Shown here: one piece after another, positions 14,847 to 20,196 of the stretch
How positions within the stretch are numbered: position 1 is the stretch's first letter
Layout of the letters: each line of letters begins with the position of its first letter
Origin: Acidimicrobiales bacterium
GTDB taxonomy: Bacteria > Actinomycetota > Acidimicrobiia > Acidimicrobiales > SHLQ01
DNA: 32,164 nucleotides
Reading direction: 5' to 3'
Assembly: GCA_013002375.1 (NCBI GenBank)
Contig: JABDJW010000252.1
Coordinates: forward strand, 1 to 32,164
Position numbers and translations under genes: made by a program
The notes under the pieces: generated by a model
The model's database searches: none
The model's input: only the letters and a program-made list of their open reading frames with translations
Told to the model about the DNA's origin: nothing

Positions 14847-15485
14847 TTGAGTAACAACTCGTCCCACTCCACCGACGACGACATTGATGGCGCGCGGCTG
14901 AAGGCCATCCACGCCTCCGAGGTTGATCAACCCCGCATCGAGGCCGCGGTGCGCGAGATCCTCGCCGCCATCGGCGAGGACCCGAATCGCGATGGTCTGC
15001 TCGATACGCCGGGCCGGGTGGCTCGCATGTACGCCGAAACTTGCTCGGGACTGCACATCGACCCGGCCCAGCATCTGCACAAGACCTTCGATGTCGACCA
15101 CGACGAGATGGTCATGGTGCGTGACATTCCGCTCTATTCGTTGTGCGAGCACCATCTGTTGCCCTTCATCGGCTCGGCCCACTGCGCGTACATCCCCCAG
15201 AAGAACGGGCGCATCACCGGCCTGTCGAAGCTGGCCCGGCTGGTCGACGGCTACTCCCGGCGCCCCCAAGTCCAGGAGCGTCTGACGCAACAGATCGCCG
15301 ATGCGATCGATGAGATGCTCGAACCGCAGGGCGTGCTGGTGGTGATCGAGGCCGAGCACCTCTGTATGTCGATGCGGGGCGTCCGCAAACCCGGCTCCTC
15401 GACCGTCACGTCCTCGGTCAAGGGCATCTTCCGCGAGCAGAGCTCCACTCGCTCCGAGGCCATGCGCTTCCTCGAGCGTCGCTGA
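14847..15485 (+). CDS. folE: GTP cyclohydrolase I
   Basis: TTG start; '[51 protein letters not shown]', '[24 protein letters not shown]'. Confidence 0.97.
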
Positions 15486-15523: not shown

Positions 15524-16375
15524 TTGGGAATCGCTACTAGGGTGGCGGTCGTGCCTTTGTCCTTCCCGCTGCGCCCCCGGACGACGGGCCCTGTCGTCAT
15601 GGGAATCGTGAACGTCACACCGGATTCATTCTCCGATGGTGGCCGTTTTCTCGATGCCGATGCCGCGATCGAGCACGGGCGAGCCATGCTGGCCGACGGG
15701 GCGGCGTGGCTCGACGTCGGCGGTGAATCGAGCCGGCCGGGCGCCGAGCCGGTCTCGAGCGAAATCGAGCTCGAACGGGTGATTCCCGTGGTCGAAGCAC
15801 TGGCCAACGACGGCCTGGTCTCGATCGACACCGTCAAGCCCGAGGTCGCCCGGGCCGCCGTGGCCGCAGGCGCCACCATGATCAACGACATCTCCGCATC
15901 CTTGGCGTCGGTGGCGGGCGAGTTGGGCGTGGCCTGGGTCGCCATGCACTGTCAGGGAACCCCCCGCACGATGCAGGATGCGCCCCGCTACGACGACGTC
16001 GTCGCCGAAGTCACCGCCGATCTGGCCGCCGCCATCGAGGCCGGCCAGGCGGCCGGCGTGTCGCAGATCTACGTCGATCCCGGCATTGGCTTCGGCAAGA
16101 CCACGCAGCACAATCTGACGCTGTTGGCGCACCTCGATCGGTTCGTCGCGCTCGGCTTTCCGGTTCTGGTCGGTGCCAGCCGGAAGCGATTCATCGGTGA
16201 AATCCACAGTCGAGCCGACCATCGATCAGAACCGGGATCCCAACTGGCCGCGATCGACGATCGTCTGGAAGGGTCATTGGCCGTCGCCACCTGGGCCAGC
16301 GCGCAGGGGGCGGCAATCGTCCGGGTCCACGACGTGCGAGCAACCGTGCAAGCGGTGCGCGTCGTGGCCGCTTGA
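15524..16375 (+). CDS. folP: Dihydropteroate synthase
   Basis: 'VMGIVNVTPDSFSDGGRF', 'WLDVGGESSRPGAEPVS', 'VDPGIGFGKTTQHNLTLL', 'VGASRKRFIG'. Confidence 0.96.
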   Translation: MGIATRVAVVPLSFPLRPRTTGPVVMGIVNVTPDSFSDGGRFLDADAAIEHGRAMLADGAAWLDVGGESSRPGAEPVSSEIELERVIPVVEALANDGLVSIDTVKPEVARAAVAAGATMINDISASLASVAGELGVAWVAMHCQGTPRTMQDAPRYDDVVAEVTADLAAAIEAGQAAGVSQIYVDPGIGFGKTTQHNLTLLAHLDRFVALGFPVLVGASRKRFIGEIHSRADHRSEPGSQLAAIDDRLEGSLAVATWASAQGAAIVRVHDVRATVQAVRVVAA

Positions 16376-16384
16376 GAGGAACAC

Positions 16385-16903
16385 ATGAAGGGTAAGTGGG
16401 CCCGGGGTATCGAGCCTCGGAACTTCACATGGATCATCAAGGATCGACTGGCCGTCTGCGAGCGGCCGGGCGGCTACGGCGCGAACCATCGCAAGGTCCG
16501 GCGCCAGGAGGAGATCATCTGGATCCGTGAAAACGCCTTCGACATCGTCTTCTCGTTGATCCAGTCGCCCCACAACCTCCACAACTACGACGCCCTCGGC
16601 GTGGCCTATACCCATCAACCGTTCAACGGTCCCGAAGACGGCGTCGAACGACTCGATCAGCTCTACAAGAACCTTCGCACGCTGCTCGACAACGGAGCCA
16701 AGGTCCTCGTCCATCGCGAAGAGCTGGCCGATCACGTCTCGGGAATGCTGGCCGGGTACCTGTTGTGGGCCGGCTTCATCGAGACCGGCCCCGACGTCAT
16801 CGTCGCGATCGAGCAATTGGTCTCGCGACCGCTCGGTCCCGTCGGCCGCGAGATCGTGTCGCTCGCCATCCGGGCGCGCGACGGGGCCGAGGCCTCTTCG
16901 TGA
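16385..16903 (+). CDS. Dual-specificity-phosphatase-like protein lacking the canonical CxxxxxR loop (putative pseudophosphatase) in folate operon
   Basis: 'NFTWIIKDRLAVCERPGG', 'IIWIRENAFDIVFSLIQSPHNLHNYDALGVAYTHQPFN', 'NGAKVLVHREELADHVSGMLAGYLLWAGFIETGPDVIVAIEQLVSRPLGPVG' align by eye to DSP motifs (VHCxxGxxRS...aYL...g...A......RP). Confidence 0.6.
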   Translation: MKGKWARGIEPRNFTWIIKDRLAVCERPGGYGANHRKVRRQEEIIWIRENAFDIVFSLIQSPHNLHNYDALGVAYTHQPFNGPEDGVERLDQLYKNLRTLLDNGAKVLVHREELADHVSGMLAGYLLWAGFIETGPDVIVAIEQLVSRPLGPVGREIVSLAIRARDGAEASS

Positions 16904-17262
16904 CCGACGTCCTCGAATTGCGCGGGCTGCGGGTCATGGCGCTGTGTGGGGCGTTACCCGAAGAGCGCGAGCGGGCCCAACCCTTCGAACTCGACATCGA
17001 CGTGCACACCGACCTTTCGGTGGCCGGCAAATCGGACAACCTCGACGACACGCTCGACTACGGCAGCCTCACCGAGGCGATCTCGATCGTCCTCCATGGC
17101 GAGCAATACACCTTGCTCGAACGCATGGCCGAGCGGGTGACCGAGATCGTCCTCGACGCTCCGACGGTCGAGAAGGTCGTCGTGTCGGTCCACAAGCTCC
17201 GGCCGCCGGTGTCCGAGCACCTGGCGACCGCGGGTGTCCGGATCGAGCGCACCCGCTCCTAG
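16900..17262 (+). CDS. folB: Dihydroneopterin aldolase
   Basis: GTG start overlapping the previous stop (GTGA); 'LELRGLRVMALCGALPEERERAQPFELDIDVHTDL', 'LDYGSLTEAI', 'TLLERMAERVTEIVL'. Confidence 0.93.
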   Translation: MTDVLELRGLRVMALCGALPEERERAQPFELDIDVHTDLSVAGKSDNLDDTLDYGSLTEAISIVLHGEQYTLLERMAERVTEIVLDAPTVEKVVVSVHKLRPPVSEHLATAGVRIERTRS

Positions 17263-17274
17263 GGCGAGCACGCC

Positions 17275-18459
17275 ATGGTCACGACCCGCGCCCTGCTCGG
17301 CCTCGGTTCGAACCTGGGTGACCGTTGGAAGCTGTTACGCGACGCGGTTGGATCGATTCCCGATGTCGTCGCGGTGTCATCGGTGTACGAGAGCGACCCG
17401 GTCGGTGGGCCCGAGCAGGGGCAGTTCCTGAATCTGGTCGTACGGCTCGAGACCGAGCGGTCGGCCCGGGAGCTACTCGAGGTGTGTCAGCGTTGCGAAG
17501 AAGCCGCGGAGCGGGTGCGGGTCGAGCGCTGGGGGCCGCGCACGCTCGACGTCGACGTGCTGTGGGTCGATGGCGAGACGGTGGACGAGCCGGATCTGAT
17601 CGTGCCGCATCCCAGGACCTTCGAACGGGCCTTCGTGGTATTGCCGCTTCGCGACGTCGCACCCGATGTCGCGCCCGACGACTGGGAACACCCCAGCGAC
17701 CAACAACTCCGGCGGGTCGGAACGCTCTTCGCCGGCCCCGACGAGGGCCGGTCGGTCGCCATCGTCGGCCCCGGCCGCGCCGGTCAGGCCATGGGCCAGG
17801 CCATCGAGCAGATCGGGTGGGCGTCGGTGCGTTACTTCGGCCGCAATGACGATCTCGACGGCATCCGATCCGACGAGCTCGTGATCATCGCCACGCCCGA
17901 TGCCGCGGTGGCCGACGTGGCCACCGCGATCCCGGAGGTCGAGGATCGTCCGGTTCTGCACGTGGCCGGTTCCCTCGGGGTCGACGTGCTCGCCGGTCAT
18001 CGCCGCGCCGCCGCTCTCCACCCGGTGCTGGCGATGCCCACGCCCGCCATCGGTGCGCACCGGCTGCTCGATGACGCCTGGTTCGCGATCTGCGGCGATC
18101 GAGCGGCCGACGAACTCGCGGTCGCCATGGGGGGACGATCGTTCTGGGTCGAGGACCACGATCGCGCCGCGTACCACGCCGCCGCAGTGGTGGCGTCGAA
18201 CCACGTCACTGCGCTGCTCGGCCAGGTGTGGCGCATCACCGGGTCGATCGTCGTGCCGCGCGAGCCCTTCTTCCGCCTGGCCCGGAGTGCAATCGACAAC
18301 GTCGCGACGCTGGGGCCACAGAAGGCCCTGACCGGCCCGGTGGCACGGGGCGATCACGAGACCATCGAACGCCACCGGGCCGCGCTCGACCCGAGTGAGG
18401 TCGAGCTGTACGACGCGCTCGTGGCCGCCGCGCTTCGGGTCAAGGACAACCGGCCATGA
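17275..18459 (+). CDS. folK: Fusion protein: FolK (HPPK) N-terminal domain + Rossmann/DUF2520-like C-terminal domain
   Basis: 'ALLGLGSNLGDRW' and 'ERWGPRTLDVDVLWVDGETVDEPDLIVPHPRTFERAFVVLPL' (HPPK); 'RSVAIVGPGRAGQAMGQAIEQIGW...VIIATPDAAVADVA...AALHPVLAMP...AAYHAAAVVASNHVTALL' (Rossmann + DUF2520). Confidence 0.88.
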   Translation: MVTTRALLGLGSNLGDRWKLLRDAVGSIPDVVAVSSVYESDPVGGPEQGQFLNLVVRLETERSARELLEVCQRCEEAAERVRVERWGPRTLDVDVLWVDGETVDEPDLIVPHPRTFERAFVVLPLRDVAPDVAPDDWEHPSDQQLRRVGTLFAGPDEGRSVAIVGPGRAGQAMGQAIEQIGWASVRYFGRNDDLDGIRSDELVIIATPDAAVADVATAIPEVEDRPVLHVAGSLGVDVLAGHRRAAALHPVLAMPTPAIGAHRLLDDAWFAICGDRAADELAVAMGGRSFWVEDHDRAAYHAAAVVASNHVTALLGQVWRITGSIVVPREPFFRLARSAIDNVATLGPQKALTGPVARGDHETIERHRAALDPSEVELYDALVAAALRVKDNRP

Positions 18460-19319: not shown

Positions 19320-19374
19320 CCGCTTGGGGGCGTTCCCAGGCGGCAAGCTCCTCGGCTCGCCGTACGATCGTGGC

Positions 19375-20196
19375 ATGAACATGCCAGCAGCCAATTGGTA
19401 TCCCGACCCCTCCGGGAAGCACGAGCACCGGTACTGGGACGGTGCCGGGTGGACCGAGCACGTCAGCGACCACGGTCGGCAGTCGATCGATCCGATCGGC
19501 TCGGCCAAACCGGTGCCGACCACCAACGACGATTCCGATCGGATTCGGCGCCAGGTGCAAGAGCGAGCTCGGGTGGACGTTGCGGAGGCCGGCGGGGGCA
19601 CGCTGTTCACCGAGCCGGTTCTGGTGGTCAATCAAAAGGCCAAGCTGATCGAAATTCACAACGAGTACGCGGTGTTCGATCAGCACGGCAGCCAGGTCGC
19701 CGCCGTTCGGCAGGTGGGGCAGAGCGCGGCCAAGAAGGTGCTGCGGGTGCTCACCAGCCTCGATCAGTTCATGACGCACAGCCTGCAGATCGTCGACATG
19801 GGCGGGAACGTGCTGCTGACGGTCACCCGGCCGGCCAAGTTCTTCAAGTCGACGGTCGAGGTCGGCGGGCCGCACGGTGAGACGATCGGTCGAGTGGTGC
19901 AACAGAACATGTTCGGCAAGATCCGATTCGCCTTTGAGGTCGACGGCGAAACGATCGGCTCGATGCATGCGGAGAACTGGCGGGCTTGGAACTTCAGCCT
20001 GCAGGACCGCTCGGGCACCGAGGTTGCTCGCATCACCAAGACGTGGGAGGGGTTGGCCAAGACGTTGTTCACGACCGCCGACAACTACGTGCTGCAGATC
20101 GACCAGCCCGTCGCAGGCCCGCTCCGAACGTTGGTGGTGGCGTCAGCCTTGGTGGTCGATACCGCGTTGAAGCAGGACCAGCGGGGATTCGGCTAG
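19375..20196 (+). CDS. DUF2510 + LURP-one/phospholipid-scramblase-related domain protein
   Basis: N-terminal 'NWYPDPSGKHEHRYWDGAGWTEHV' (DUF2510); C-terminal beta-rich 'YAVFDQHGSQVAAVRQ...FFKSTVEV...WNFSLQDRSGTEVARITKTWEGLAKTLFTTADNYVLQI' LURP-one-like. Confidence 0.8.
   Translation: MNMPAANWYPDPSGKHEHRYWDGAGWTEHVSDHGRQSIDPIGSAKPVPTTNDDSDRIRRQVQERARVDVAEAGGGTLFTEPVLVVNQKAKLIEIHNEYAVFDQHGSQVAAVRQVGQSAAKKVLRVLTSLDQFMTHSLQIVDMGGNVLLTVTRPAKFFKSTVEVGGPHGETIGRVVQQNMFGKIRFAFEVDGETIGSMHAENWRAWNFSLQDRSGTEVARITKTWEGLAKTLFTTADNYVLQIDQPVAGPLRTLVVASALVVDTALKQDQRGFG

Follow-up and report, generated by a model that had tools for sequence, protein, structure and literature searches.

A DSP-fold protein family lacking the catalytic cysteine, encoded among the folate genes of Acidimicrobiia

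Pseudophosphatases that evolution has conserved after the loss of their catalytic residue are best illustrated by STYX, a dual-specificity phosphatase (DSP) relative of animals which has Gly in place of the catalytic Cys and regains activity when that one Gly is changed to Cys (PMC8269279). The conserved pseudophosphatases that we found described are eukaryotic; our search of the open-access literature found no case of a bacterial one, and two reviews (PMC8269279, PMC9464862) do not contain the word bacteria. Here we analyse orf X, which encodes a 172-residue protein of an Acidimicrobiales bacterium (GCA_013002375.1) on contig JABDJW010000252.1, of which positions 1 to 32,164 were studied (32,164 nucleotides; the window). 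An earlier reading made from the sequence only had proposed that X is a catalytically dead DSP embedded in the folate operon.

Genomic position and predicted fold

Orf X occupies positions 16385..16903 of the forward strand, with an ATG start at 16385, a ribosome-binding-like GAGG 7-10 bases upstream and a TGA stop at 16901-16903. It lies among fol genes on the same strand: folE (GTP cyclohydrolase I, 14847..15485; PF01227, E = 5.8e-77), its upstream neighbour folP (dihydropteroate synthase, DHPS, 15524..16375; TIGR01496, E = 1.9e-89), folB (dihydroneopterin aldolase, 16900..17262; PF02152, E = 7.2e-30) and folK (HPPK, 17275..18459; PF01288, E = 6.6e-36 over 17296-17664). The GTG start of folB at 16900 and the end of X share the four bases GTGA; the sequence and the family models thus confirm both the coordinates and the neighbours given in the sequence-only reading. 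The folK ORF continues in frame into a Rossmann-like C-terminal domain, which is a separate ORF in other loci, and overlaps panC by four bases. After panC comes a conserved scramblase-like ORF (named by eye, 19324-20196), which is often directly 3' of X in one family of the class, f7. The window's genome also encodes a second DHPS paralogue on another contig (G000:C92:12764-13522); a folP2 near cell-wall genes has been described for high-GC Gram-positives (PMC1971073).

Searches with the single X sequence gave hints of a DSP relationship (Pfam PF22785, E = 0.069; PDB 25xa, E = 0.034), and a profile built from 66 X orthologues matched the bacterial DSP 25xa with an E-value of 1.2e-7. An AlphaFold2 model, computed with the 66-orthologue alignment as input, reached a pLDDT of 92.2 and a pTM of 0.88, and with this model Foldseek retrieved 231 PDB matches at E ≤ 1e-3. 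Those listed were almost all of the PTP/DSP fold (DUSP23, KAP, Cdc14, baculovirus RNA 5'-phosphatase), the best being DUSP23/VHZ (2img, E = 3.1e-8, TM 0.70/0.79). Because the AlphaFold2 and Foldseek matches and the profile match to 25xa all point the same way, the DSP resemblance of X is not due to chance; the predicted models and the profile place X in the PTP/DSP superfamily (DSP alpha/beta fold), and within the limits of prediction the DSP fold can be taken as established. The DSP pattern that had been read along the ORF is therefore borne out, and the structure check proposed with it returned fold similarity. X is not assigned to any existing family in the searches run. None of Pfam DSPc (PF00782), PF22785 and PF22784 scored above its gathering cut-off, with PF22785 alone listed for the window protein (14.1 bits against 27), and no real family match was found in NCBIfam. 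The nearest profiles are those of two bacterial DSP-PTPase families, Tc-R-P (PF22785) and PTP-SAK (PF22784), to which the other X-family members listed also gave weak E-values below curated cut-off, the best of any being 9e-4. No Nudix match was found in Pfam and the fold is that of a DSP, so X does not belong to FolQ, the Nudix DHNTP pyrophosphatase.

The former catalytic loop and the conserved lid

The degenerate P-loop of the window protein (16709..16735, forward strand) reads V109-H110-R111-E112-E113-L114-A115-D116-H117: the His is kept, the catalytic Cys is replaced by Arg, and acidic residues stand at Cys+1, +2 and +5. Across 120 distinct X orthologues the loop follows H-x-[DE]-E-[LV]-x-D-[RH], and neither a Cys at position 111 nor a CX5R motif was present in any of them (0/120 for each). 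When 28 homologues from another class were added, HCX5R or CX5R[ST] was found in 0/148 distinct homologues, while H110 was found in all 148. At position 111 the residues counted were G, R, Q, A, N, H, S, M and V, Gly being the commonest (35/120). Of the acidic positions, residue 112 is Asp or Glu in 115 of the 120 X proteins and Asp or Asn in 28/28 other-class homologues, residue 113 is acidic in most of the 120, and residue 116 is acidic in 117/120 and 27/28, respectively. In the region of the WPD-type loop P79 is conserved and residue 84 is Asp or Glu in 105/120, its register to the catalytic general-acid Asp being uncertain.

The replacement of the expected Cys by Arg had been noted from the window alone, and we find the Cys gone without exception among the 120 distinct orthologues, which rejects a recent isolated lesion; an intact CxxxxxR had been named as the finding to look for in sister taxa, and no orthologue carried one. 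The accompanying claim that the P-loop Arg is absent holds for the window protein (His117), as for the other X proteins that make up the 20/120 with His, but fails for the family, in which 81/120 have Arg at this position and the remainder have other residues. Because no Cys-bearing HCX5R loop was found in any of the homologues compared, the catalytic lesion is ancient and predates the diversification of the Acidimicrobiia. Pseudogene decay was rejected on the evidence of open reading frames and of 27 invariant columns in the alignment of 66 orthologues. Rather, the P-loop appears to have been rebuilt with acidic residues, not merely to have decayed, and this acidification would disfavour phosphate binding at that site.

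Conservation in X peaks outside the P-loop, at residues 26-46 (ERPGGYGxNHRxVRRQEEIIW; 16460..16522, forward strand), the hallmark of the family, which is predicted to comprise a loop and the beginning of a helix above the ancestral active site. In the 66-sequence alignment 10 of these 21 positions are invariant, compared with 17 of the other 151 (Fisher p = 2e-4), and across the homologues R27 and R40 are invariant (148/148) and H35 nearly so (146/148). In DSPs the region between strand 2 and helix 1 borders the active site, and the lid of X, modelled between the second strand and the first helix, probably does the same. Few internal segments are modelled with less confidence, both in X (pLDDT 71, residues 31-40) and in an other-class homologue (pLDDT 77, residues 21-30); low pLDDT in the most conserved segment suggests ordering by a ligand or partner. 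Over the protein as a whole, the median identity to the window proteins at the same 57 loci is 58.8% for X, 58.5% for folP, 52.9% for folB and 63.1% for folK, so that X is as conserved as DHPS.

With its predicted DSP fold conserved and its catalytic residue lost across orthologues, X is a probable STYX-like pseudophosphatase, and the proposal of a catalytically dead fold kept by evolution is supported by the predicted fold, the lack of CX5R in every orthologue and the widely conserved place in the fol locus. We favour, with a probability of roughly 0.6, the reading that X uses its DSP fold for binding or scaffolding without catalysis, as an ancient and vertically inherited pseudophosphatase. 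A DSP-fold ancestor would have lost its catalytic Cys before the Acidimicrobiia diversified and the Cys-less protein would have been repurposed as a non-catalytic binding module, where we infer 'non-catalytic' solely from the loss of Cys-based chemistry. The phosphate-binding P-loop would have become an acidic H-x-[DE]-E-x-x-D turn over which the invariant basic ERPGGxGxxHRxxRR lid may fold, turn and lid together forming a putative binding site whose small ligand or partner protein would be sensed or scaffolded.

The main rival to this reading, which we consider rather unlikely, is that the DSP scaffold carries a new enzymatic chemistry, in which His110, Asp/Glu112, Glu113 and Asp116 with the Arg and His residues of the lid would form a non-Cys active site, perhaps metal-dependent. 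The constancy of H110, of the acidic positions 112 and 116 and of R27 and R40 would fit such an enzyme, as would conservation as high as that of DHPS; a protein serving only as a scaffold would not usually keep such a set of His, Arg and acidic residues invariant, and the clustering of these residues in one region is what a new active site would lead one to expect. However, the other-class branch has not retained three residues that hardly vary in X (N64, H66 and H77), and it carries Arg in place of E113. We give similarly low odds to the reading that in this core family, near-universal to the class, the P-loop was remade into a His-containing acidic site beneath the Arg/His lid and now carries out new chemistry or senses a new metabolite, independently of folate. 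Less likely again is a STYX-type binder, competing with an active phosphatase for a phosphoprotein: the lesion is of the same kind as the Gly-for-Cys change of STYX (PMC8269279), Gly being the commonest residue at 111, and Arg117 is kept in most X proteins, but phosphate binding there is disfavoured by the P-loop's two or three acidic residues and by the absence of Arg117 from the window protein and from other lineages, and no partner kinase or phosphoprotein was linked to X.

Distribution and the folate operon

X was found in 57/60 relatives and in 208 of 219 Acidimicrobiia genomes (at least 95% complete, with the window's own genome included at 86%), and is thus near-universal in the class. 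Outside the class, a phylum sample of 298 genomes held only three clear X homologues, all from one family of another class (f62), and 149 genomes searched from that class yielded 27 matches, nearly all in f62. Of the weak matches elsewhere in the phylum, the three whose sequences were read (G344, G288 and G701) are ordinary DSPs with an intact HCxxGxxR, and the one short match inspected, in G175, was rejected as a homologue, lying by eye in a citrate-synthase-like ORF. A phage or plasmid origin was likewise rejected, tblastn having found no match in the phage or plasmid collection. The f62 homologues (L146-L170), about 23-31% identical to X proteins, share with them the ERPGGxGxxHRxxRRxE lid, H110, the acidic residues 112 and 116 and the DSP fold, the last seen in a predicted model of an f62 protein itself. 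In place of the P-loop, however, they have VHCDRxxEWL, with Cys in 21/28 but no Arg at +6, and they adjoin a thioesterase-like ORF, not fol genes. This hotdog thioesterase-like ORF (named by eye) is just upstream of the homologue in most f62 loci, e.g. L134:5186-5596.

The usual gene order around X in the class is tilS-hpt-ftsH-folE-folP-X-folB-folK-R18-panC-lysS, and the folP-X-folB-folK linkage is widespread across the loci compared, so that the fol-locus position holds up well beyond the window; no stable neighbour of X beyond the general syntenic block was found in these loci. Two genomes (L131 and L133; G116 and G104) have two HPPK copies, of which the first adjoins X and the second is grouped with folE and folB at a separate locus.

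The presence of X, however, does not track the de novo folate pathway. All 13 class genomes without HPPK have X (13/13), and 12 of these, from four families, also lack a DHPS over cut-off, among them the single-contig genome G543. At one locus the fol genes are gone from both sides (hpt-X-panC-lysS; G647, L176), and at two others the flanking fol genes are gone and X stays (hpt-ftsH-X-R18-panC-lysS; G548 and G539, L185/L186). Conversely, X is absent from 11 genomes that have HPPK, and the family f32 lacks it in 10/10 sampled genomes with HPPK and folE kept; in its single-contig genome G049, folE, DHPS, folB and HPPK are clustered without X. In families f7 and f41 X lies away from the fol genes even where those exist, for instance at 4.26 Mb as against 1.88 Mb for folB-folK in G171, an arrangement also seen in named records including Ilumatobacteraceae; tilS beside X in f7 was identified by its PP-loop motif SGGxDS read in ORFs. 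Classical folE (PF01227) is absent from G024, G171 and other f7 genomes though folB and folK are present. The absence of HPPK and DHPS from draft genomes could partly reflect incompleteness, but G543 is a single contig and incompleteness cannot easily explain losses in both directions.

Because X persists without HPPK and DHPS and is missing from f32, where the fol genes are retained, its operon position is best read as inherited synteny and not as evidence of folate function, and the function of X is probably not folate synthesis. The sequence-only reading had suggested a pterin-phosphate binder or folate regulator and had thought a link to the missing dihydroneopterin-triphosphate step conceivable; the same presence/absence profile, with the loci that lack fol genes around X, speaks against both. 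A folate-pathway protein, whether binder, regulator or missing dihydroneopterin-triphosphate hydrolase, would suit the translational overlap with folB and a DHNTP pyrophosphatase gene that in 2007 was said to be unaccounted for in most genomes (PMC1971073), but the phylogenetic profile, the unlinked loci, the lost nucleophilic Cys and an acidic P-loop that would disfavour phosphate leave it largely refuted and the least probable of the explanations. Outside the few families concerned, the class-wide linkage could still reflect a dispensable regulatory link to folate. Operon position can therefore mislead, since natural losses on both sides separate X from the surrounding fol pathway.

Comparison with known DSPs and pseudophosphatases

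The pseudophosphatase reading is best placed beside the known members of the fold. X shares its whole-domain fold with DUSP23/VHZ and other atypical DSPs (PDB 2img, 4erc), and its N-terminal strand region aligns with the bacterial DSP 25xa, but it differs from all of these in having no HCX5R, an acidic P-loop and the conserved ERPGGxGxxHRxxRRxEE lid. With the animal proteins STYX, STYXL1 and STYXL2 (PMC8269279, PMC9464862) it shares both the DSP fold and long conservation after loss of the catalytic Cys. However, the active-site motif of the STYX proteins retains G, I, S and R (PMC8269279), whereas X is bacterial, has an acidic loop that often lacks Arg, and adds a dedicated conserved lid. The reading that fits X best is a STYX-like pseudophosphatase family of bacteria, with its conserved function in the ERPGGxGxxHRxxRRxEE loop over the former active site. 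Set beside the eukaryotic cases, this family is retained throughout a bacterial class and is as conserved there as a core biosynthetic enzyme.
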